DNA from: an uncultured Ignavibacteriota bacterium
GTDB lineage: Bacteria; Bacteroidota; Ignavibacteria; UBA10030; UBA8401
Direction of reading: 5' to 3'
DNA: 64,000 nt
Assembly (NCBI GenBank): GCA_903861125.1
Contig: CAIOTF010000049.1
Span: 62,001 to 126,000 of the forward strand
Within the stretch, counting starts at the first letter, position 1, and the number at the start of each line of letters is the position of its first letter. The notes under the pieces were generated by a model. It was not told the origin of the DNA, did no database searches, and saw only the letters and a list, made by a program, of their open reading frames with translations. The position numbers and the translations under genes were made by a program. Below, piece after piece: positions 11,576 to 23,979 of this stretch.

Positions 11576-14416
11576 ATGACAAAATATATATTGTTGTTTT
11601 TTCTTCTCTCCGTCTCCGCCATGGCTCAGAACGCCGGGAAAATATCCGGGCGCATTATAGACGCGAAGACAAAAGAATCTCTACCATCCGTTAATGTTGT
11701 AATACGGGGAACTTCACTGGGAGCATCAAGTGATCTTGAAGGAAATTATTTTATCCTCAACGTTCCTCCCGGCGAGTATGATGTGGCCGTCTCCCTCATC
11801 GGGTATCGCGGTGTCGTTCAGAAGAACATCATTGTGAACGTGAACCGGACAACGGCAGTGGATTTTTCGATGATAGAATCGGTCGTACAGAGCGAGGAAG
11901 TGGTTGTTACTGCTACGCGCCCCGACGTGGAAAAAGAAAAAACTTCGACAAGCGAGATCCGGCGCAGCGAGGATGTGATGAACGTTCCCGGTATTCAGGA
12001 TATTGCCAATGTGATCTCGCTGAATGCTGATGTCAGCGACGGACATTTCCGCGGCGGGCGTGATAATGAGGAATTGTACAATCTTCAGGGAATGGGAATT
12101 ATGAATCCGCTTACCAGCGGGACCGCGTTCAATCCGATTATGAGTGCGGTGGAAGAAGTTGAGGTAATCACATCCGGTTTCGGAGCGCAGTACGGAAATG
12201 CTCAGTCCGGCATTGTGAATATCACCATGAAGGAAGGTCGTTCGGATAAATGGGTGGCGCGTGCAGAAGTAAGAACGCGGGCTCCCGGACGCAAACATTT
12301 TGGTCCAAGCTTGTGGGAATCAATGGCGAATGTTAATCCGTCGACGACCTCAAGTCCTCCAAATTATTTTTACGTGCTGAATTCGCCCGATGCCTGGGGA
12401 TCGAACCTTTGGGGTTTTGCAAATTATTCGAACCGTTTCTCGAAAGACTCCACCACGCTGCGTCAAATGATCTACACAATGTGGCGGTATCAGGCAAAGC
12501 GTGATTTTGGAAAGAGCTATGACGATCTTGTGGACTATTCGCTTGATGCCAATGCCGGCGGGCCATTAACAGAAAACACACGTATGTTTATAGCGGTTCA
12601 TACCGATAATAATTGGGCAATGTTACCTACACCGGATCCCAACACGAACCGGCAGGTGATGGGAAATCTTGTGTACGATTTTGGAAGTGGAATAAACCTC
12701 CGTATGAGCGGTGCGTATTCAAGGGCCGAAGGACATACATTTTCCGGAAGAAATACGCAAACGTGGTATGATTGGGTGTGGGACCGCGTCTTCAGTATTA
12801 AACGTACGTTAGATGAAAATATTCAACTTGGTGTTCGCTGGTCTCAAGCGCTCAGCCAAAGCACGTTCTATGAAATTAAACTGAATACACTTCAAACACA
12901 TGCACTCACCGGATCGCCGGTCTACAATCCCGATTTTTTTGCAGCAGCCAGTCCGGCCCTTATTTGGGAACCGTTATCAAGAAATTTAGCGGACGGTTTT
13001 AATTTCGGTCAGCTTGAAAATGACTTTACTTCCGAAAAAACGAAAACGCTCAGTATTGATGCTTCCATCACCAGTCAGGTTTCAATATCGCATATGCTTC
13101 TTGCCGGTGTTCAGGGCAACTATTCAATTCTCGATGTCAACAATGTTTCCGGTCTCAGCATTCAATCCAACGGTAATTTATCGCAATATATTATCAAACC
13201 GTTCGAGCTCGGTTTATTCGTTCAGGACAAAATGGAATTTGAAGGGATGATCGCTAATATCGGTCTTCGACTGGATGTCTATAATCCGAATATGGAGTAT
13301 TATACCGATATCTTTTCACCCTACCGGTATACAGACAGTCTTGGACTTCAAAAAATTGATGAGCGATATGCATCCAAATCGAAGACGGCCACCATCGCCC
13401 GTTTACAGCCCCGCGCAGGTTTATCCTTTCCGGTATCAACACACACTGTGTTTCATGTAAACTACGGAACCTTCCTGCAGCGCCCTCCATTTAACCGGCT
13501 TATTTCTCAATCCCGCGGCAGAAGTGATATGCTGAAGTATGGTACGGCGTTGACTGTTATTGGCGTCCTTGGAAATCCGCGATTGAAACCGGAAGTGACA
13601 AACAGTTATGATGTCGGTGTCACACAAGCGTTAGGCGAAGGGTTTACGTTGGACATCAGCGGGTATTACAAAGATGTCAGGGATCTGCTGCAACGCGCCA
13701 TCTATAGTTCTAAGCAAGGTTCGTACACAACTTATATCAATCTTGATTATGCAGACATCCGCGGATTTCGCTTAGGACTTGCGAAGCGGAGCGGAATTGT
13801 GACCGGTTCGCTGAACTATACGTACGGTGTTGCTACCGGTAAAAACGGTTCATCCGACGGATATCAATACCCGACAATCTATGAAAGCGGAGAATCGAAA
13901 GACCCGGTGCCGCAGGACATCCTGCTGGACTTTGACCGGACTCATAATCTTGTCGCCAACGTCGGGATAAATACCCCGAAAGAATGGGGGCCGGAGATGT
14001 TTGATTTTTATCCGCTCGAGCAGGTCACTATTGCGGCAACCTCATTTGCTCGCAGCGGCCGTCCGTTCTCTTCCTGGGTCAATACACTGATCAAGATGAA
14101 TATGCGTGCTCCGAGCGAATATAACACGAACATCAAAATCACAAAACAAATCTCCCGTCTTTTCGGAACCAGTACAGCATTCTATTTTGAGGTATCGAAT
14201 CTATTCAACTCCAGGATCTATGATTATACGGCGGTCTTTAATCCGGATCCAACGAACCAATACAATCTTCAAAAATATACCATCAAGTATGAGAAAGGTG
14301 AGGATATCACCTATTATGAGGACGAAGAGCATCCGGGATATTATGTCAATCAGGAATTCAGAATATATTCAAATATGCCGCGATCGATGCAATTTGGAAT
14401 GATTATTAACCTATGA
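11576..14416 (+). CDS. TonB-dependent outer-membrane receptor with carboxypeptidase-regulatory N-domain
   Basis: A ~946-residue SusC-like importer for large ligands, probably oligosaccharides. The start at 11576 (MTKYILLFFLLSVSAMAQ) follows AAAGGTAAG and gives a proper signal peptide; the in-frame ATG at 11492 would add 28 unlikely residues. Domains: carboxypeptidase-D regulatory-like domain ~20-105 (GKISGRIIDAKTKESLPSVN), plug domain ~110-230 (EEVVVTATRP, GFGAQYGNAQSGIVNITMKEG), then a 22-strand-type barrel. No SusD gene follows; instead a 742-residue exported protein starts 19 nt later and two barrel proteins follow. Specificity for polyuronate fragments is inferred from location. Confidence 0.92.
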   Translation: MTKYILLFFLLSVSAMAQNAGKISGRIIDAKTKESLPSVNVVIRGTSLGASSDLEGNYFILNVPPGEYDVAVSLIGYRGVVQKNIIVNVNRTTAVDFSMIESVVQSEEVVVTATRPDVEKEKTSTSEIRRSEDVMNVPGIQDIANVISLNADVSDGHFRGGRDNEELYNLQGMGIMNPLTSGTAFNPIMSAVEEVEVITSGFGAQYGNAQSGIVNITMKEGRSDKWVARAEVRTRAPGRKHFGPSLWESMANVNPSTTSSPPNYFYVLNSPDAWGSNLWGFANYSNRFSKDSTTLRQMIYTMWRYQAKRDFGKSYDDLVDYSLDANAGGPLTENTRMFIAVHTDNNWAMLPTPDPNTNRQVMGNLVYDFGSGINLRMSGAYSRAEGHTFSGRNTQTWYDWVWDRVFSIKRTLDENIQLGVRWSQALSQSTFYEIKLNTLQTHALTGSPVYNPDFFAAASPALIWEPLSRNLADGFNFGQLENDFTSEKTKTLSIDASITSQVSISHMLLAGVQGNYSILDVNNVSGLSIQSNGNLSQYIIKPFELGLFVQDKMEFEGMIANIGLRLDVYNPNMEYYTDIFSPYRYTDSLGLQKIDERYASKSKTATIARLQPRAGLSFPVSTHTVFHVNYGTFLQRPPFNRLISQSRGRSDMLKYGTALTVIGVLGNPRLKPEVTNSYDVGVTQALGEGFTLDISGYYKDVRDLLQRAIYSSKQGSYTTYINLDYADIRGFRLGLAKRSGIVTGSLNYTYGVATGKNGSSDGYQYPTIYESGESKDPVPQDILLDFDRTHNLVANVGINTPKEWGPEMFDFYPLEQVTIAATSFARSGRPFSSWVNTLIKMNMRAPSEYNTNIKITKQISRLFGTSTAFYFEVSNLFNSRIYDYTAVFNPDPTNQYNLQKYTIKYEKGEDITYYEDEEHPGYYVNQEFRIYSNMPRSMQFGMIINL

Positions 14417-14435
14417 GTTTTTTCAGGAGCAACAC

Positions 14436-16664
14436 ATGAGTTCTCTAAAAAATATTACATTTCTTCTTTGCCTTTTCGGAAGCATGGTCTCGGCGCAAAT
14501 GCAAAAGGATTACCTGATCCATAAACGGGGGATGCTACACCAAACCGTCTATAATACGGGTGAACTCGGCAGGAAATATGTAACATCCAATGCCAACACA
14601 GAACTCGGAATTCCCTCGTTTGAATGGCCCGGAAATTCTGCTACGATCGTCGATGCAAAACAATATACTGGCTGGCACAATTCCTACGGCGGCGGAGTGC
14701 AGATTGCAGCAGATCGAGTTGATTCTTCAAAGCGCCTTATTGCATATTGCGGCGGGGAGATCGATGCTGTTGCGGAATACGTCAATTCATTTCCGCTTAG
14801 TCAGGAACGGATCGAAAACTTTCCCGTGCTGGCAAATGGAAATCTGAATCCGACATACAATCCGGATGAAGCGGAAGAAATAATCATCTCTAAATGGGCG
14901 ACACCTGTTGGTGTTACCATTACACGGACCAGCCGGGTTTGGAGTTTTCCCGATTACGATGATTTTATCATCTATGAATATGAATTTGAAAATACCGGTG
15001 ATCTTACCGGAAATCCTGCCATTCCTCCAAAACCGGTGAAACTGAAAGATTTGATCATCGTCTTTAATCACGGTATGACCGGAGGAAAGTTCGGGTATAA
15101 CAGAGTGGGAGGATCCTGGAATAATACATTGACAGATGAAATAAATATGTATGCCCGTTGGGACCGGCAACGCTGGCTCTTCTATGGAAATCATCGAACC
15201 GGCAATCCCGAACCGACATATCTTTCGGAATGGGCTACCACCGGAAAAAATGGTGGCGGATTACTCAGTCCTCAGTCACCGGGGATGATGGCACTCTATG
15301 TGGATACCGTACATCTTGCCCGACGCGGCGACGGAACAAGAGTTGTATTCTCAGCACTTTCGGATTCCGTTGCATGGGATATCAACGGCCATATCAAGCA
15401 GCCATATTATCTGCGGTTAGAAACATCCCAGCACCGGACGGACAAGGTCTGGCCGAACGTACTCGACATTTCGCTGCCTCAGAAGACCGGCTTGTTCAAA
15501 ACGGTGAGTTTGTATGGACAGGATTGGATCGGACGGTCGAATTTCAATTGGCGTCAGGGAATGAGAATCGGATATACGTACGGATTCGGTCCGTACCATT
15601 TAATGCCGGGCCAGAAAGTCCGCATTGCGTGGGCAGAAGTATGTGGTTATGGATCGGCTCGTAAAGAAGATACTGATGCCGGTGTGAAAGATATCGGCGG
15701 GAGCAACGGAGCAACACCCCCCGATGTTGAAGCAGGAGATGCCAATTATGCATTCAATATTGTTCCTAATTACTGGCAGCCGAAGACGCGCATACAGTTA
15801 AATCCGACGGGTACTTCCACCGGTACGACGGTATTCGGTAGCGATTATCTCAGCAAATATTCTTTGCCGGATTTTGTTAATTCAAATGTTGTTACTATCC
15901 GTGAAGTTGCTGATCGTGCTATTCAAGCATATACCGGCGATACGCTGATCAATCATAATACAGTGCAATACTGGCCTGATACAAAAAATGAGCGCGGTTC
16001 GTACCGCATTCCCATTCCTGTTCCGGCTCCGGCGCTGACATTGGAAAACACGCTAGTCGGTGAAAGCAAGATCATTTGGGGACCTCAAGTTGAATCGTTT
16101 ACAACACCGCGATTGCAGGGAACGTTCGATCACTACGAAGTGTACAAATCGTCGCATCCGTTGGGACCATGGATTAAGCTAGCGACGATAGCAAAAGGTG
16201 ACCCGCAGTATATTGTCGGCGGTAAATATCAGTTTATCGATAAGAATGTCCGCATCGGCGATAACATCTATTACTCTGTATTGTCGGTGGATAATAAAGG
16301 GAATAAGAGCGGCCGGACCAACATGACGCTGCATGCTGCATCCATCGGCGCAACGGCAACGCTGCAGCAGGTCTTTGTTGCTCCGAATCCATTTATCGTG
16401 AAATCAGGATATCCAGGATCCACTCCCGACGGCGACATCAATAACCAGCTCCGTTTTTATAATCTTCCAAAAACTTGCACGATACGCGTGTACTCATACA
16501 GCGGACAACTCATTCAGACCATCGCGCACGATGCGGATGAAATTCAACATCCATATTTTCAGATAACACGGAACAATCAATTAATCGCTTCGGGTGTCTA
16601 TTTCTATGTTGTCGATGCACCGGACGGCACCCGGGTTCATGGCAAGTTTGTTATCATCAACTAA
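14436..16664 (+). CDS. Exported 742-residue protein partnered with TonB receptor, family not recognised
   Basis: It starts behind AGGAG with a signal peptide (MSSLKNITFLLCLFGSMVSAQ). The bulk (~25-540) is beta-rich with many Trp/Tyr residues (EFPWGN-type, WSFPDYDDFIIYEYEFEN, GFGPYHLMPGQKVRIAWAE) and is not an enzyme family I recognise. Residues ~550-635 look like a fibronectin type III fold (FDHYEVYKSSHPLGPWIKLA). Residues ~640-742 (VFVAPNPFIVKSG ... SGVYFYVVDAPDG) resemble a divergent sorting-type beta domain. Its position directly after the receptor, where SusD normally stands, and its lone-exported character suggest a surface glycan-binding or lid protein. That role is inference. Confidence 0.75.
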   Translation: MSSLKNITFLLCLFGSMVSAQMQKDYLIHKRGMLHQTVYNTGELGRKYVTSNANTELGIPSFEWPGNSATIVDAKQYTGWHNSYGGGVQIAADRVDSSKRLIAYCGGEIDAVAEYVNSFPLSQERIENFPVLANGNLNPTYNPDEAEEIIISKWATPVGVTITRTSRVWSFPDYDDFIIYEYEFENTGDLTGNPAIPPKPVKLKDLIIVFNHGMTGGKFGYNRVGGSWNNTLTDEINMYARWDRQRWLFYGNHRTGNPEPTYLSEWATTGKNGGGLLSPQSPGMMALYVDTVHLARRGDGTRVVFSALSDSVAWDINGHIKQPYYLRLETSQHRTDKVWPNVLDISLPQKTGLFKTVSLYGQDWIGRSNFNWRQGMRIGYTYGFGPYHLMPGQKVRIAWAEVCGYGSARKEDTDAGVKDIGGSNGATPPDVEAGDANYAFNIVPNYWQPKTRIQLNPTGTSTGTTVFGSDYLSKYSLPDFVNSNVVTIREVADRAIQAYTGDTLINHNTVQYWPDTKNERGSYRIPIPVPAPALTLENTLVGESKIIWGPQVESFTTPRLQGTFDHYEVYKSSHPLGPWIKLATIAKGDPQYIVGGKYQFIDKNVRIGDNIYYSVLSVDNKGNKSGRTNMTLHAASIGATATLQQVFVAPNPFIVKSGYPGSTPDGDINNQLRFYNLPKTCTIRVYSYSGQLIQTIAHDADEIQHPYFQITRNNQLIASGVYFYVVDAPDGTRVHGKFVIIN

Positions 16665-16667
16665 GCA

Positions 16668-17729
16668 ATGCAGATGACTATGAAACATACAATACGATCA
16701 ATGGCAACACTGCTGCTGCTGACGGTCTCGATCAGTCAGCTTCAGGCACAAAAGGTTGGCACAAGTTCAATGCAGTTTCTGAAAGTAATGCCAACGGCTC
16801 GTGCAACTGCGATGGGCGATGCATATGTTTCGCTCGCAACCGGCGTCGATGCAGTCTTTTGGAATCCGGCAGGACTGACAACAATGGAAAACCACGAAAT
16901 GAGCTCGACATTGACCATGTGGCTCTTCGATACAAAACAGGTTGCCTTGGCGTACGGACTGCCGATGGGAGACTGGGGAAGTATCGGCTTCCAGTTTCAG
17001 TACATCGACTTTGGATCAATGCAGGAAACACGAGGTGATGTGGCAGACCTTGTAAGGCCTGTTCAAGGGATTCCATACTATAATCCCGGTTTAACCGGAA
17101 GAACATTCACGCCGTTTTCGTATTTGACCGGTTTCACTTATGCGCAAAAATTCACCGATAAATTTTCAGCCGCACTTTCCGTTAAATACGCAATGGAGTC
17201 TCTCTGGTCAGAACAGTCAGTGACTATTATTAATCCTACAACCGGAGAAATAAAATCCTATAAGACATATGCGGATGTTGTGCTGTTCGATTTCGGTATG
17301 TTATACAACACGGGATTTCGATCCGTAAAAATTGGAGTGTCGACACAAAATTTTGGACAGCAGATAACCTTTGCAGAAAAAGCACATCCGGCACCGCTCG
17401 CATTTCGTCTTGGTGTTTCGGCGAACATATTCGGCAGCGAAGGATTATTGTTCCGGGACGATATGAACCGACTCACGCTTGCCTACGATCTGTTCCAACC
17501 AAACGACTATAAACAACAGATGCATATCGGCGCAGAATATTCGTTTTCTGAATTGGTTGCCCTTCGCGGAGGCTATAAAGTTGATTACGATACCGAAGGT
17601 CTCTGTTTTGGCGGCGGCGTGCATACCGATCTTTCCGGGTGGCCGATCAGTGTTGATTACAGCTATGGGAAAATGAGTGAATACCTGAATACTGTGCATC
17701 GTATTAGTTTAGGAGTGCAATTCCGATGA
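16668..17729 (+). CDS. PorV/PorQ-family outer-membrane barrel protein
   Basis: A 349-353 residue protein; ATG codons at 16668, 16674 and 16680 are all possible, the last giving MKHTIRSMATLLLLTVSISQ as signal. The start of the mature part (SSMQFLKVMPTARATAMGDAYVSLATGVDAVFWNPAGL) is the hallmark of the PorV/PorQ (UPF0164) family. PorV proteins shuttle T9SS cargo or act as outer-membrane barrels. The gene is 3 nt from the preceding stop and overlaps the next gene by ATGA. Embedding in a receptor operon rather than with T9SS core genes suggests a dedicated role in displaying the upstream protein; this is inference. Confidence 0.85.
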   Translation: MQMTMKHTIRSMATLLLLTVSISQLQAQKVGTSSMQFLKVMPTARATAMGDAYVSLATGVDAVFWNPAGLTTMENHEMSSTLTMWLFDTKQVALAYGLPMGDWGSIGFQFQYIDFGSMQETRGDVADLVRPVQGIPYYNPGLTGRTFTPFSYLTGFTYAQKFTDKFSAALSVKYAMESLWSEQSVTIINPTTGEIKSYKTYADVVLFDFGMLYNTGFRSVKIGVSTQNFGQQITFAEKAHPAPLAFRLGVSANIFGSEGLLFRDDMNRLTLAYDLFQPNDYKQQMHIGAEYSFSELVALRGGYKVDYDTEGLCFGGGVHTDLSGWPISVDYSYGKMSEYLNTVHRISLGVQFR

Positions 17730-19267
17730 AATTGAATTTTAATAAAAAATTTGCCGTGACGTTCATTGCATTGTTCCTGAGCATTGCATCCATCACGGCC
17801 GCACAACCCGCCGCAAATGCGCTTGATATCCATGGACTGGATCAATTCTCTCTCATAGGCGTTCGCTCAAGGGCAATGGGCGGAACAACAATTGCCAATG
17901 CGAATGATGCATCGGCACTATTTTCAAATCCTGCCGCTCTTTCAAAACTGAAGTCTATTGAAATTCGTGCCGGCGGATTCTTTGCCAACACTGCGCGCAA
18001 GCAGACTCAAGAATGGGTTCCGCAGCGAAGTGCTCCGGGCCTTGGATTACTTTTTGAAGGACTTACCGGTACAATCAAAACACCAGACAGCGCCGGCGTT
18101 CCGGGTGTCACCGAAAAAGATCCGTGGAAAACCGTGCAGAGACAGTATGACAACATCAAACCTAATTGGAACAATAGCACTTCTGCAATCGAACCGTTTT
18201 CATTCGCTGCTGCTGTTCCGTTTGAGATCGAAGGATTCAGTATTGTGGCGGGTATCGGAGCGTCAAAGACAATAGATCTTAACAACTATTATCAGAACAA
18301 CAATTCCATGTCGCCGTATCTCGGTCAGCTCCGTCCATATGTCAATTTCTATGACAGAAGCAAGCCAACCGACACTGCGCATGTCAAGTGGTATCAATAC
18401 ATCCGTGAAAGAAAAGGATCGATGTATGGTGTTACACCGGGTATAGCGGTCACAATTCTTACGGGTCTTACCATTGGCGGATCTGCTACGATACATTCCG
18501 GTTCGTCTGATGACAATGAATCCCGGTTAGACCGCGGACATCTGAATATTGCTGTTGAGAACGGTGCGCCGCAAAATTTCATGGTGGACACTGTCTATTA
18601 TAAACAATCGAAGGTTGGCACATCAACCTATTCGGGGAATTCAATGAATGTCGGACTATACTTCCAACAGGAACGGTACAGCATCGGCATTACCGTTGCG
18701 CCGGAAATGACGATAACACGAACGTGGAAACGGGATGTGTCGAGCATAGATACAACAAGAAAAACATTTCCGGTGAGGGTGGACAGTTTGACGACAAGAT
18801 CCTATCATGAGAGCGGAAAAGATAATCTTACATTTCCGCTGTCGTACTCATTCGGCATCGTGCTGACACCAACGGACAAGTGGACGATCGCGTTCGATTA
18901 TGAAATGAGATATTTATCGGATGTGAATTTGACCACAACATTGAACAGTGCACCGACGCATCCATGGTCCAATAACAGAGGATCGATGCACATTGGTGCT
19001 GAATACCGTCCGGACAAGATGCTGGCGCTGCGGGGCGGTTATCGTGACGACGTTCAACCGTTCTCACCCGATGGAGCCGCAATCATCGGCGAACCGGCCC
19101 GCGGGGGTATCTATTCATTAGGAGCGGGAATATTTCTTGAAGATATCCTGATCGATTTTGCATATGAATATTCGCTGCTGAAGTATGAGGATATGTATCA
19201 ATCCAATGTCAACTACAATAGCAGAGAACAGCACCGACTTATGATGGAAATCGCATATCGGTTTTAA
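17726..19267 (+). CDS. FadL/OmpP1-like outer-membrane barrel protein
   Basis: A 513-residue exported protein with a signal peptide (ends near ITAAQP) and an N-terminal FSLIGVRSRAMGGTTIANANDASALFSNPAAL segment typical of FadL/OmpP1-type or PorV-related barrels (AMGG and NPAAL motifs). The C-terminus ends in Phe (MEIAYRF), a usual signal for barrel assembly. It overlaps the PorV-like gene by the ATGA quartet, so they are translationally coupled. FadL proteins transport hydrophobic small molecules; in this context a diffusion channel or secretion partner for the receptor complex is as likely. No substrate can be assigned. Confidence 0.8.
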   Translation: MKLNFNKKFAVTFIALFLSIASITAAQPAANALDIHGLDQFSLIGVRSRAMGGTTIANANDASALFSNPAALSKLKSIEIRAGGFFANTARKQTQEWVPQRSAPGLGLLFEGLTGTIKTPDSAGVPGVTEKDPWKTVQRQYDNIKPNWNNSTSAIEPFSFAAAVPFEIEGFSIVAGIGASKTIDLNNYYQNNNSMSPYLGQLRPYVNFYDRSKPTDTAHVKWYQYIRERKGSMYGVTPGIAVTILTGLTIGGSATIHSGSSDDNESRLDRGHLNIAVENGAPQNFMVDTVYYKQSKVGTSTYSGNSMNVGLYFQQERYSIGITVAPEMTITRTWKRDVSSIDTTRKTFPVRVDSLTTRSYHESGKDNLTFPLSYSFGIVLTPTDKWTIAFDYEMRYLSDVNLTTTLNSAPTHPWSNNRGSMHIGAEYRPDKMLALRGGYRDDVQPFSPDGAAIIGEPARGGIYSLGAGIFLEDILIDFAYEYSLLKYEDMYQSNVNYNSREQHRLMMEIAYRF

Positions 19268-19380
19268 GTATAGTTTCAATCAACAGTAATAAAAATGAAA
19301 GTTCTACGTTCAAAAATTTTAATCGCCACCATTATTCGCGTGTGCAGGTATGTGCACGGAGAATCGTGATGAGGAGTTTT

Positions 19381-20133
19381 ATGAAAACGACTGCTATGAA
19401 AACCATATTTATTATTACAGCTATGTTCATTGCCGGCTGCACGGAAAACCTGGACCCGCTTGTTCCAGGTTCGATGGACGGACAATATTCGATAGGAACA
19501 AAGGGACTTGTTCCGTTGAATGTCGGGAACAGTTGGACATACAGCGTGGTGCTGTATGATACGACCGGAATAGAGCGAAAGCGTTATACCTACACCCTTA
19601 GCGTAAAAGATACGATATCTGCCGATACCGGCAAGATACCGCTGGTCTCGCCGAGTATTGACAGGAAATCCATTAAAAGAGAAGCCCTCGTGTGGTATCT
19701 TCTTCAAGGTGAATCGGGTATAACAACTTGCTGGCAGGTTGATACGTTGGAAAACCTGCGGATCCGGAAATCCGATGACACGCGGTTCTATGAACAAAAA
19801 GCATTTAATTTCAGAGCGGCGGTCGGCGACACGACAACTGCAAGGTACATTGGAGGAGACACCACGGTTTGGGCATCAGGCGACATCATCTATACAACGG
19901 CGGATTCTGTGCGGTCGTCACTTGTCTCAAAAGGTGTCGATACACTGAGAACGACCCTTGGATCAGCGCCGTATTTTTATTACCGGGAGTCATATAAAGT
20001 GCGGACCGATTACACGAACTATTACTTCAAACCCGGTTTTGGTCTGTTATTAACCGAAAAATTTCAGCGAACAGCAGGCGGAACACTGGTTCGCGTTCGC
20101 CGAGACGAACTGGTTTCCTATTATTTTAAATAA
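19381..20133 (+). CDS. Hypothetical lipoprotein in the outer-membrane block
   Basis: A ~250-residue protein. The start at 19381 follows GAGGAG; GTG at 19342 and ATG at 19369 are in frame but add non-signal residues. The lipobox is FIAGC with Cys20, so it is lipid-anchored. The mature part begins LVPLNVGNSWTYSVVLYDTTG, a phrase found in many Bacteroidota/Ignavibacteria lipoproteins of unknown function, and is beta-rich throughout. No catalytic motif is recognised. It lies 113 nt after the FadL-like gene and before a small barrel gene. Confidence 0.75.
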   Translation: MKTTAMKTIFIITAMFIAGCTENLDPLVPGSMDGQYSIGTKGLVPLNVGNSWTYSVVLYDTTGIERKRYTYTLSVKDTISADTGKIPLVSPSIDRKSIKREALVWYLLQGESGITTCWQVDTLENLRIRKSDDTRFYEQKAFNFRAAVGDTTTARYIGGDTTVWASGDIIYTTADSVRSSLVSKGVDTLRTTLGSAPYFYYRESYKVRTDYTNYYFKPGFGLLLTEKFQRTAGGTLVRVRRDELVSYYFK

Positions 20134-20187
20134 AATTCTTTAGCAGCGATTACAATATAGATCTTAACGTTTTTTCGGGAAAATATC

Positions 20188-20868
20188 ATGAAACAATTTA
20201 CAAAGTGGTTTACATGTTTGCTCACAGTGCTTATGACGGGGAATGCGCAGGAGAATTCCGGGTTTGAGGTTTCTGTCAGCAGCGGTTATGTCATTCCTTC
20301 TTCGCCCATGTCTTTTGCTAATTATTGGAAGATGCAGTACGGCGGTGCTTTGGGAGCCGGAATTGCGCTCACTCCGTCAATTACAATCGGAGGTGCATTT
20401 GAATATTATCAATTTACGCTGGACAACAACGGGATCAATAAAGGATTCGATACAAAATACATGCGCGATATTTGGGTCTTTAATGATGTCGCCTTGAAAC
20501 CTTCGGCCAATACCAGCACTGTGATGACGCTGGCGGCACAGATGCGGATTGCGCCCCCTGAATTGTCAGGATCACTCTCTCCATATTTCCTCACCGGTGC
20601 CGGCGTAATGTTTTTTTCGCTGAGCGAAATTTCACTCCCCGTAAAAAGCACGATACTGGTAGGCGGTTCAACGGTCGCGATGAGCGCACAACAACGTATC
20701 ATCGGCGGTGACGAAACAATTCCTTTTGCCCAATTCGGATTAGGAATGAATTATCGTTTAACAGAATTCTTCAATGTCTTTATCGAAGCACGTTATACCA
20801 GAGGTCTGAATAAAGGTCTCGGCACAACGTACCTGCCCCTTACGGCAGGCATAAAGTATCTCTTGTGA
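20188..20868 (+). CDS. Small outer-membrane beta-barrel protein
   Basis: A 226-residue protein with a signal peptide (MKQFTKWFTCLLTVLMTGNAQ). The mature part alternates hydrophobic and polar residues in strand-length segments (GGALGAGIALTPSITIGGAFEYYQF, near the end FAQFGLGMNYRLTEFFNVFIEARYTRG), as in OmpA-like 8-stranded barrels. It closes the outer-membrane block. Function is unknown; a porin or structural protein is possible. Confidence 0.75.
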   Translation: MKQFTKWFTCLLTVLMTGNAQENSGFEVSVSSGYVIPSSPMSFANYWKMQYGGALGAGIALTPSITIGGAFEYYQFTLDNNGINKGFDTKYMRDIWVFNDVALKPSANTSTVMTLAAQMRIAPPELSGSLSPYFLTGAGVMFFSLSEISLPVKSTILVGGSTVAMSAQQRIIGGDETIPFAQFGLGMNYRLTEFFNVFIEARYTRGLNKGLGTTYLPLTAGIKYLL

Positions 20869-21087
20869 TTGATTCATCGAATGTGTGTGGAGAAAATGTT
20901 GACACATACAACATGGAACAATTGCCCAAAACTATTCTCTCAGAGTCGTCGAACAAGTACTTCTATCCGGTCGGATATTACAAACCATTGTGTACCATTA
21001 TTTCAATAGATAAAGAACAGGGAAATGTGAGTGGATAATATTTCATCCGTTCCCTTCTTTTTCTGCTGCCGATGCTGGTGTTTGATT

Positions 21088-22191
21088 ATGAAGCGATTGC
21101 CGAAAAAATATTTGCAAAGACTTTTTGTCATTTTTTTGGCACAGTGTACCATTGCTCAATCGCAGGTTGTTCTCAATGCCGACGGACCCGGCTCTACATA
21201 TGAATTGATCAACAGCCGCTTTGCTCCCGGTTACGACTGTGTTGAAAATCCCGAATGTATCCATCCTGAATTCGGACGGCACATTGCTGAGGTATGGGAT
21301 GCCGAGCTGCAGCAATATGTCTTTGAATTCTATTCTCATGTTACTCCGGACAATGACCGTTGTATTAATTTTGACAGGCAACGGGTTGAAATTAAAACGT
21401 ATGCATCATCGCCAGATAATTTGAAAGGGGTGACGGGTGAAACAATCACGTATCAATGGAAATTCAGACTGCCTGCCGGGTTTCAGCCCTCCAGCAGTTT
21501 TACCCATATACACCAGATAAAGGCTGTCGGCGGAAACGATGGTGATCCCATATTCACGTTAACTCCAAGAAAAGGGACTCCTCATAAAATGGAACTGATA
21601 CATGATAACACAACAAAAGCGGCAATTGTTGATCTATCATTGTTTGTCGGTGTGTGGGTAGAATGCACAGAAATTGTTCATGTCGATTCTACGAATGGTG
21701 CCTATTCCATAATGATAAAGAACGTTAGTAATGGTGCAACGATACTATCATACAGCAGCAATAAAATTAAGACTATACGTTCAGACAATGATTTTATCCG
21801 GCCGAAATGGGGTATCTATCGCAGTCTCGATCATCCAGCTGACCTGCGTGACGAGGCGGTGCGTTTTGCAAACTTTTCCATTCAGGAAGGGACGACCGGG
21901 GTTGAACGGACTGATCGTTCCTTACCCGGTCACTTGATATTGGAACAAAATTATCCCAACCCTTTCAATCCGTCGACCGTTATCAAATATCAAATCCCTT
22001 CTTCATCGTCTATTTACATAGCGATCTACGATTGTTTGGGAAGTGTGATCGATGTGTTGGTCGATAAAGTTCAATCAAGCGGCAGTTATCAAACAGAATG
22101 GGATGCTTCGCGGTTTTCGAGCGGAATATATTTCTGCCGGCTGCAGACAAAAGAATTTACAGAAACAAAAAAAATAGTTTTGTTAAAATAG
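21088..22191 (+). CDS. PL7/PL13-like jelly-roll polysaccharide lyase candidate with T9SS sorting domain
   Basis: A ~367-residue secreted protein. The ATG at 21088 (MKRLPKKYLQRLFVIFLAQ) is preferred to the GTG at 21031. The catalytic-type domain (~30-285) shows three spaced motifs like those of jelly-roll polyuronate lyases: QRVEIKTY (compare R-x-E-x-R), FTHIHQIKA (compare QIH) and PKWGIYRSL (compare YFKxGxY). These support a PL7/PL13/PL18/PL20-like fold, but the exact family is not certain. Residues ~285-367 are a T9SS type A sorting domain (LEQNYPNPFNPSTVIKYQIP). Together with the PL6 gene downstream it suggests attack on a polyuronate at the cell surface. Confidence 0.72.
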   Translation: MKRLPKKYLQRLFVIFLAQCTIAQSQVVLNADGPGSTYELINSRFAPGYDCVENPECIHPEFGRHIAEVWDAELQQYVFEFYSHVTPDNDRCINFDRQRVEIKTYASSPDNLKGVTGETITYQWKFRLPAGFQPSSSFTHIHQIKAVGGNDGDPIFTLTPRKGTPHKMELIHDNTTKAAIVDLSLFVGVWVECTEIVHVDSTNGAYSIMIKNVSNGATILSYSSNKIKTIRSDNDFIRPKWGIYRSLDHPADLRDEAVRFANFSIQEGTTGVERTDRSLPGHLILEQNYPNPFNPSTVIKYQIPSSSSIYIAIYDCLGSVIDVLVDKVQSSGSYQTEWDASRFSSGIYFCRLQTKEFTETKKIVLLK

Positions 22192-22227: not shown

Positions 22228-23979
22228 ATGAAACGAATTTACCTAACGTACCTCATGAAATATTTTATCCGAAATTGGAATAGAGTTGTCGTCATTATTG
22301 GCATTTTCACCAGTCTGGCGCCCCTCCATTTGAATGCGTCAGTGATTCGCGTCTCATCAATACCTGATCTACAATCTGCCATTAACAATGCCTCTTCCGG
22401 CGATGTGATCATCCTCGCCAATGGTACGTATCTCAATGCAACGCTGACTATTGGTACAAGCAACATTACTGTAAAAGCCGCCGCACCCGGCGGCGTTTAT
22501 CTCAACGGACCTCAGTATATCGATATCACAGGAAATTTCGTCACGTTCAGCGGTTTCCAATTTACTTCCGGTGATATTGGCGATGCATATGTGATCGATG
22601 TCTATGGGAGTCATAATCTGATAACGCAGCTGAACTTTTCCGGTTATTCAGCAAAAAAATATATCAGCATACACGCCCCAAGTCAATATAATGAGATAAC
22701 ATACTGTAATTTTGAAAACAAGCCCGTTACTGCTCCGATCGGTAATCTCATCCATATTGATCCCGACACTCTCGTTCCCGGATATCACAAGATCAGGTAC
22801 TGCTCTTTTAAAAATATGCCGGGCGCCGGGGGCGATAATGGAAATGAATGTATCAGGATCAGCAACGGAGCAACATCCACCTACATATCGAGAACAATCG
22901 TTGAATTTTGCTACTTCGACAACACCGGTCTAGGGGATAGTGAAGCGATATCCGTAAAATGTAGAGAGAATGTTCTCAGATATAATACGTTTACGAATAA
23001 TCAGAATGCAATGATGGTCTTCAGAAACGGCGATAACAATGCGGCGTACGGGAATTTTTTTATCGGTGCAGGCGGAATAAGAGTAAAGGAAGCGAACAAC
23101 ATCTATTGCTACAACAATTATTTTGAACGTGCCGGTGCGAGCGGAACAATGGGCGCAGTAAAATACGATTACATCAGTCCGAATCTTAAGAATATCAACT
23201 TCCTGTATAATACATTTGTTGATTGCGGAGATATTAATTTAGGCGGGTCCGGCCCAACGAATAATACTTGGGCCAATAATATCTTTAAGAAGACGGCAGG
23301 AAATATCTTCACCGGTTCCTCTGCGGGAATTTCATGGGCTGGCAATATCTGCACGGGCACAGTAGGTATTTCCATAGCCTCCGGTATAACGAGCGCTGAT
23401 CCGCTTCTTATTGTTAATTCAGACGGCTACTATAGTTTATCCCCGGCAAGTCCCGCTATTGATGCATCAAGTCCAAATGTTCCGGCAATTCTCGACATTG
23501 CAAACATTGATGATGACCCTTTTGTTTTGCTTGATATCAGCGGACAGGCAAGACCTGCAGCAAAAAATTTAAAAGATGTTGGTTGCGATGAATATACAAC
23601 CGGCGCAATAACCAATCGCCCATTAAAGGTTTCGGATGTGGGACCAGTGTATGTCGGAGGGACTGCCGCAATCGTATCAGATGATCATAAGATCAATGCG
23701 ATAAACAATGCCGAATTGGTTGGTATGCTTCGGGAGTGCTATCCCAATCCGTTCAATCCAACGACGACGATTCGATTTCGGGTTCCGTCACAGGGAAACG
23801 TTACGTTGCAAATTTATGATCAGCTGGGCAGGGAAGTGGTAACGCTTTATGAAGGAGTAATGTCGGCGGGTGATTATCAGTCGGTATGGAATGCAGGTCA
23901 TTCACCAAGCGGCGTGTACTTCTGCCGGCTGCATATGGATGGATATTGGGAAACAAAGAAACTCATATTGATACAATGA
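22228..23979 (+). CDS. PL6 family lyase with T9SS sorting domain
   Basis: A 583-residue secreted beta-helix lyase; ATG at 22255 is an alternative start giving the same signal peptide core. PL6 features: EAISVKCRENVLRYNTF (probable catalytic Lys near residue 250) and MMVFRNGDNNAAYGNFFIG (probable catalytic Arg about 20 residues later), plus the C-terminal SGQARPAAKNLKDVGCDEY. A T9SS type A sorting domain occupies the last ~80 residues (YPNPFNPTTTIRFRVP). Unlike the PL6 enzyme at 6884-8467, this one is surface-sorted, so the pair may act sequentially outside and inside the outer membrane. Alginate is the most common PL6 substrate. Confidence 0.85.
   Translation: MKRIYLTYLMKYFIRNWNRVVVIIGIFTSLAPLHLNASVIRVSSIPDLQSAINNASSGDVIILANGTYLNATLTIGTSNITVKAAAPGGVYLNGPQYIDITGNFVTFSGFQFTSGDIGDAYVIDVYGSHNLITQLNFSGYSAKKYISIHAPSQYNEITYCNFENKPVTAPIGNLIHIDPDTLVPGYHKIRYCSFKNMPGAGGDNGNECIRISNGATSTYISRTIVEFCYFDNTGLGDSEAISVKCRENVLRYNTFTNNQNAMMVFRNGDNNAAYGNFFIGAGGIRVKEANNIYCYNNYFERAGASGTMGAVKYDYISPNLKNINFLYNTFVDCGDINLGGSGPTNNTWANNIFKKTAGNIFTGSSAGISWAGNICTGTVGISIASGITSADPLLIVNSDGYYSLSPASPAIDASSPNVPAILDIANIDDDPFVLLDISGQARPAAKNLKDVGCDEYTTGAITNRPLKVSDVGPVYVGGTAAIVSDDHKINAINNAELVGMLRECYPNPFNPTTTIRFRVPSQGNVTLQIYDQLGREVVTLYEGVMSAGDYQSVWNAGHSPSGVYFCRLHMDGYWETKKLILIQ

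Follow-up and report, generated by a model that had tools for sequence, protein, structure and literature searches.

What stands beside a TonB-dependent receptor when a polysaccharide-utilization cluster has no SusD? We addressed this question for a gene block (positions 11576-20868) within 64,000 nucleotides of DNA from an uncultured Ignavibacteriota bacterium (class Ignavibacteria; GenBank assembly GCA_903861125.1, contig CAIOTF010000049.1, positions 62,001 to 126,000 of the forward strand), the whole of which we call the window. In this block, a TonB-dependent receptor gene is followed by genes for a 742-residue exported protein, hereafter the partner, and for an outer-membrane barrel of the PorV/PorQ family. 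As we discuss below, this trio is probably a TonB-dependent importer, whose surface subunit for substrate capture would leave the cell through the type IX secretion system (T9SS) and be held by a dedicated PorV-like barrel.

A receptor, a T9SS-tailed partner and a PorV-like barrel recur as a unit

The trio consists of the following genes.

11576..14416, + strand: TonB-dependent receptor (TBDR) with a CarboxypepD_reg domain, a TonB-box-like EEVVVTATR, a plug and a barrel; outside the SusC clade
14436..16664, + strand: 742-residue exported partner with a Sec signal peptide, a modeled β-supersandwich (~31-525), a fibronectin type III (FnIII) domain (~526-637) and a partner-type T9SS sorting domain (~640-742)
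16668..17729, + strand: PorV/PorQ-family barrel, the proposed dedicated shuttle/anchor of the partner

The receptor gene is separated by 19 nt from the open reading frame (ORF) of the 742-residue protein, which is separated by 3 nt from the PorV-family gene, and an ATGA overlap joins the latter to the gene for a FadL-like barrel. Gene order, strand and spacing across 11576-20868, including this overlap, agree with a preliminary description made from the sequence of the window, which had also named a lack of conserved pairing elsewhere as an outcome that would overturn its proposal. Scanning genome contigs with the 742-residue protein identified 22 homologous loci in Ignavibacteriota, KSB1 and metagenome-assembled genomes (33-98% identity). 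The receptor was upstream in 19 of 19 and the PorV-family gene downstream in 21 of 21 loci that were long enough, and the pairing is therefore conserved in Ignavibacteriota and KSB1.

The genome containing the window (4.19 Mb, 54 contigs) encodes 33 TonB receptors and 20 PorV-family proteins, both counted above cut-off. Fifteen exact trios are present, in each of which a receptor, a T9SS-tailed protein of 588-1268 residues and a PorV-like barrel share a strand in this order, and the gaps run from -6 to 31 nt and from -82 to 40 nt. One further copy is permuted (locus L051), giving ~16 copies in all. Because the trio is intact in every homologous locus that reaches upstream and occurs 15 times in this genome, its recurrence is far beyond chance.

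To sample breadth, we read the neighborhoods of 20 PorV-paralogue matches from other families of the class. Eleven contained an exact trio; in the other nine, receptor and barrel were adjacent, and eight of these nine had a partner-type protein several kb upstream on the same strand. In the permuted unit (L070-L073, L075, L081, L083 and L086, as well as L051), the receptor adjoins the PorV-like barrel, and a partner-type protein plus an enzyme-tailed protein are encoded several kb upstream on the same strand. When 148 genomes sampled from the phylum were searched with a partner-superfamily profile, 89 gave a match, although weak matches may rest on the FnIII or sorting domain. Among strong matches outside the class, 12 of 16 lay in exact trios, and most of the remaining sampled class and phylum loci showed the permuted order. 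KSB1 and related genomes reached through these loci had 18-47 partner-superfamily matches each, and one KSB1 contig (C427 of genome G102) carries a tandem array of several ~720-residue partner-superfamily frames.

The three genes also share a history. For the 15 trios of the window's genome, agreement between trees was strongest for barrel and receptor (r = 0.81) and for the N-terminal part of the partner and receptor (0.80), followed by partner and barrel (0.71) and by sorting domain and barrel (0.55), with permutation p values of ≤0.0006 throughout (p = 0.0002 for PorV-TBDR, partner-TBDR and partner-PorV). Shared species history is not the cause, because all 15 trios come from one genome, and duplication of the trio as a whole unit is the simplest reading. 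In a receptor tree, moreover, the trio receptors grouped together, apart from SusC and from non-trio receptors. Two loci (L025, 5012-9536, on the contig of the window and ~6 kb upstream of it, and L037, 488-5176) encode a TonB receptor and directly afterward a protein with a T9SS tail of the ordinary enzyme type, without a PorV gene; their receptors fell outside the trio group.

These results bear on the alternative that survives best, although we judge it unlikely: the trio may be a dedicated secretion unit only, in which the barrel exports the partner as a free or lipopolysaccharide-anchored surface protein (an adhesin or glycan binder), while the receptor has only the operon in common with them and takes up the products independently. 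T9SS cargo with a type B C-terminal domain (CTD) and a downstream PorP/SprF barrel form just such a pair, with no receptor, and the permuted loci place several genes between partner and receptor. The receptor, however, is immediately upstream in every exact trio, its tree tracks those of partner and barrel as closely as those track each other, and a receptor group of its own is likewise at odds with mere sharing of an operon.

Trio partners carry a distinct T9SS sorting domain

T9SS cargo is picked up from SprA by a barrel, and type A CTDs have been assigned to a single general PorV (PMC12618676). Type B CTDs use cognate PorP/SprF barrels, which are encoded directly downstream and also anchor them (PMC12618676; PMC9143113). 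The PorU CTD stays on PorV and the PorZ CTD on PorQ, and it has been suggested that the cognate barrels shield the CTD from cleavage (reviewed in PMC10202324). The SprA translocon is encoded in the window's genome (1069 bits).

The 353-residue barrel of the trio matched the PorV_fam model NF033709 with 194.7 bits (cut-off 90) but scored below the PorV and PorQ equivalog cut-offs, and is neither PorV nor PorQ proper; with the PorP/SprF model it reached 23.3 bits, short of the cut-off of 90.55. Its sole credible sequence match among solved structures was PorV (6h3i_F, E 5.5e-15), and no FadL chain was matched. A model of the barrel (pLDDT, predicted local distance difference test, 65) fitted best to 8gl6_F, a PorV with bound RemA CTD, with FadL, TodX and TbuX coming after PorV in the list of folds. 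A tree of the PorV paralogues was too weakly supported for clade claims and was not used for them.

We compared sorting domains using two CTD models, one built from the sorting domains of the own-genome trio partners and another from secreted-enzyme tails found in the 22 homologous loci. Proteins flanked by a receptor and a PorV scored 108-142 bits with the partner model and 1-25 bits with the enzyme-tail model. With the enzyme model, secreted enzymes in the independent sample of 20 class loci scored 70-128 bits and all 11 flanked proteins 4-25; with the partner model, the secreted enzymes scored 4-37 and the flanked proteins 115-134. One protein was intermediate (23 and 45). The same split separated trio-partner and enzyme tails in the window's genome. 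Thus, trio cargo and ordinary T9SS cargo of the same cell differ in their sorting signals, and a distinct cargo CTD together with a barrel for each trio is what a dedicated shuttle/anchor predicts. The earlier claim that the 742-residue protein is a surface glycan-binding partner delivered through the PorV-like barrel is supported in part: its T9SS sorting domain belongs to a separate subtype that is paired with a dedicated PorV-like barrel, and its modeled fold lacks a catalytic domain. At a separate locus (L059, 9161-12547), two small PorV-like barrels are encoded in tandem behind a T9SS-tailed protein of 520 residues, whose sorting domain is intermediate, and these barrels are perhaps part of the T9SS attachment machinery.

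A second alternative, which we consider improbable, is that the barrel passively lets small or hydrophobic products through, as a channel of the FadL type, and that the partner uses the general PorV. PorV and FadL do share a fold, as the order of the fold list reflects, and the FadL-like barrel is encoded directly next in this subfamily. Nevertheless, the sequence profile of the trio barrel leads to PorV and not to FadL, barrels and partners pair strictly one to one, and the partner CTD subtype is missing from the general-PorV enzyme cargo of the same genome.

The partner models as a β-supersandwich without a catalytic barrel

The 742-residue partner carries a Sec signal peptide but no lipobox, and nearly all paralogous partners likewise lack a lipobox. 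Against Pfam, nothing scored above cut-off (CHU_C was sub-threshold), and a sequence search of solved structures gave nothing credible. At the C-terminus, TIGR04183 of NCBIfam matched with 23.8 bits (cut-off 23), PF18962 was not reported by Pfam, and the type B CTD model TIGR04131 had no match.

An AlphaFold2 model computed with 20 homologues was of moderate quality (mean pLDDT 66; pTM, the predicted template-modeling score, 0.70). In fold comparisons, residues ~31-525 of this model best fit the N-terminal β-sandwich region of enzymes of glycoside hydrolase family 116 (GH116) and of the GH94 type, with 7w2v (GH116 N-terminal region) as the best match (Z 15.6, 271 residues, 3.9 Å). Residues ~526-637 formed an FnIII domain, followed by the sorting domain. 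The FnIII-like and divergent sorting-like C-terminal domains reported in the preliminary description are supported, the first by the model and the second by the marginal TIGR04183 match. The helical (α/α)6 catalytic barrel of GH116/GH94-type enzymes had no counterpart in the model. As modeled, the protein would be a carbohydrate-enzyme-type β-supersandwich without a catalytic barrel, joined to an FnIII and a sorting domain, and this predicted architecture fits a carbohydrate-handling, non-catalytic role.

Of the 15 paralogous partners scanned, 13 had no Pfam family at E 0.01, and the other two had only fn3/CHU_C fragments and a CHRD domain. Profile comparison related the N-terminal halves of the 742-residue family and a group of 31 partners (99.1% probability), and we therefore treat the partners as one superfamily. 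Cys105 and Cys681 are invariant in 20 aligned homologues, possibly reflecting a disulfide or another thiol contact. A conserved low-confidence N-terminal stretch (24-85) was considered as a receptor contact and dropped, as its conservation was 0.65 against an average of 0.61.

Could the 742-residue protein instead be a secreted enzyme of a glycoside hydrolase/phosphorylase lineage? The best folds, GH116, GH94-type phosphorylases and related enzymes, would suggest so. The match is, however, limited to the non-catalytic N-terminal β-sandwich; after residue 525 of the model come the FnIII and sorting domains instead of an (α/α)6 barrel, and neither this protein nor its 15 paralogues contain a Pfam enzyme family. 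We regard the enzyme reading as very unlikely. The preliminary description had named an unrelated enzyme as another outcome that would overturn its proposal; the model has no catalytic domain, although it folds like an accessory domain of glycoside hydrolases.

The receptor is outside the SusC clade and SusD is absent

The receptor contains PF00593 (75 bits) and CarbopepD_reg_2 (66 bits) domains, with a sub-threshold Pfam Plug match, but has no SusC/RagA NCBIfam match. In the receptor tree, 11 genuine SusCs of the class formed a clade with support of 1.0 that excluded every trio receptor. We therefore rejected SusC membership, and the earlier label of a SusC-like receptor did not hold up; the only feature common to the two is the CarboxypepD_reg domain.

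SusD (PF07980) was not found anywhere in the window's genome, which was examined by regions, so its absence, previously noted for the block, holds beyond the immediate neighborhood, and the SusD just outside the window that would have overturned the earlier proposal did not turn up. A SusD model built from the class likewise had no match among 1681 ORFs of the trio loci. Across 100 class genomes, SusD was present in 29, in 1-3 copies, and PorV-family proteins were present in all (3 to at least 19 each). In 10 class SusD loci that we read, SusD adjoins a receptor of 1002-1226 residues and has a lipobox where its start is clear, and no PorV gene was found. SusCD and the trio are thus separate systems, sometimes in one genome, because the receptors of the SusD loci form a clade excluding the trio receptors and the trio loci have no SusD. 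SusD is a helical protein. The position of the partner behind a TonB receptor with a CarboxypepD_reg domain might suggest that the trio is simply a SusC/SusD-type system whose SusD has diverged strongly. This reading is scarcely credible and was rejected, given a partner that is all-β in its model and has no lipobox, and given the lack of any SusD match in the genome or in the 1681 ORFs and the separateness of the real SusCD pairs.

Accessory genes and genomic context

The following genes lie downstream of the trio.

17726..19267, + strand: FadL/BamG-like barrel; accessory kept with this trio subfamily (18/18 loci extending far enough)
19342..20133, + strand: lipoprotein with lipobox FIAGC; accessory, close clade only
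20188..20868, + strand: small outer-membrane barrel (OMP_b-brl, sub-threshold); accessory, close clade only
21031..22191, + strand: polysaccharide-lyase-like exported protein whose T9SS tail is of the ordinary enzyme type; context and control
22228..23979, + strand: chondroitinase B/polysaccharide lyase family 6 (PL6)-type lyase whose T9SS tail is likewise of the ordinary enzyme type; context and control

The FadL-like barrel scored best with BamG (68 bits, below its cut-off) and also matched PorV_fam. It lies next to the trio in the homologous loci and is kept with this subfamily even in KSB1, but is missing from other trios. The true start of the lipoprotein is probably an ATG downstream of 19342. 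The preliminary description had the order of the FadL-like barrel, lipoprotein and small barrel right but included them in the import block; being missing from other trios or limited to the close clade, they were rejected as core parts and are accessories of one subfamily.

Across its 64 kb, the window forms a large polysaccharide cluster. It encodes two chondroitinase B/PL6-type lyases and an alginate lyase, several sulfatases, a heparinase II/III-like protein, and GH88, GH43 and GH2 enzymes, and the trio receptor is its sole TonB receptor. The probable substrate is a sulfated polyuronate.

Discussion

In the mechanism that we propose, the partner, made with a Sec signal peptide, would leave through the general T9SS translocon of the cell, for which SprA is present. 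The co-encoded PorV-like barrel, rather than the general PorV, would take the distinct CTD of the partner and keep the sorting domain uncleaved, as a membrane anchor that would hold the partner beside or over the TonB receptor and so do for it what a lipid anchor does for SusD. The β-supersandwich/FnIII body would capture substrate, here probably a sulfated polyuronate oligosaccharide, and the receptor would import the captured glycan with TonB energy. That a PorV-like barrel may both export the partner and anchor it next to the receptor is suggested by analogy with the PorU/PorV, PorZ/PorQ and type B/PorP-SprF precedents. For the more general proposal, of an importer class with a T9SS-delivered capture subunit on a dedicated PorV paralogue, present in many copies per genome in several lineages of the phylum and in KSB1, we think the balance tips slightly in favor.

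Several points weigh against this mechanism. First, about half of the sampled class loci are permuted, with the partner several genes upstream, and immediate adjacency is therefore not obligatory. Second, the literature has every type A CTD using one PorV (PMC12618676), and the proposal contradicts that for these lineages. Third, partner-family genes are numerous in KSB1 genomes, some in tandem arrays. Fourth, the partner CTD model was trained on own-genome trios, which makes positive scores there partly circular and leaves the sampled loci as the independent test. Finally, the partner model is only moderate, with low TM-scores against GH116 (~0.2 of the full chain).

How does the trio compare with known systems? 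Like SusC/SusD (RagA/RagB), it combines a TonB receptor carrying a CarboxypepD_reg domain with a large surface partner (putative in the trio), whose gene comes directly next in a polysaccharide-utilization cluster. Unlike in SusC/SusD, the partner is putative T9SS cargo that has a modeled β-sandwich fold and lacks a lipid anchor, the receptor is outside the SusC clade, and there is a third member, a PorV-like barrel. BtuB-BtuG and TbpA-TbpB also pair a TonB receptor with a surface capture protein, the functional logic that we propose for the trio, but their partners are lipoproteins, and to our knowledge no partner of this type uses T9SS export or a PorV-like anchor. Type B CTD proteins and PorP/SprF barrels (SprB-SprF, PG1035-PorP) resemble the trio, as proposed here, in that T9SS cargo is encoded directly upstream of a dedicated shuttle/anchor barrel (PMC12618676; PMC9143113), whereas the trio barrel is of the PorV family, the partner CTD matches type A (TIGR04183), weakly, and not type B, and a TonB receptor is included. 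In the PorU-PorV and PorZ-PorQ attachment complex, as proposed for the trio, a PorV/PorQ-family barrel retains an uncleaved cargo CTD on the surface (PMC10202324), but this complex is single-copy secretion machinery and the trios are ~16 receptor-linked copies per genome. In BamG-BamH, of the BAM (β-barrel assembly machinery) complex of Bacteroidota, a barrel of the FadL family keeps a surface partner next to another barrel (PMC12611786), although this partner, BamH, is a lipoprotein and the complex serves to fold outer-membrane proteins.

Every part of the trio belongs to a known family or fold, and the combination appears to be undescribed. We found no description of the receptor/partner/PorV unit, of receptor-dedicated PorV paralogues or of the partner superfamily in full-text searches of an open-access library, with preprints and subscription journals outside the search. 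The trio would be a variant of the receptor-plus-surface-partner importer, with a fair chance of meriting a separate class.

Polymer import in these mostly uncultured lineages has hardly been studied, and SusC/SusD, used as a cluster marker, misses most of their loci. If our proposal is correct, the trio would be a new genetic marker for polysaccharide utilization in these groups and would tie the T9SS directly to nutrient import. It would also challenge the view that one general PorV serves every type A-like cargo, and the PorV paralogues offer natural cargo-barrel pairs for probing sorting specificity. In these bacteria, the trio would do the work of SusD, and PorV would have diversified into many cargo-specific anchors.

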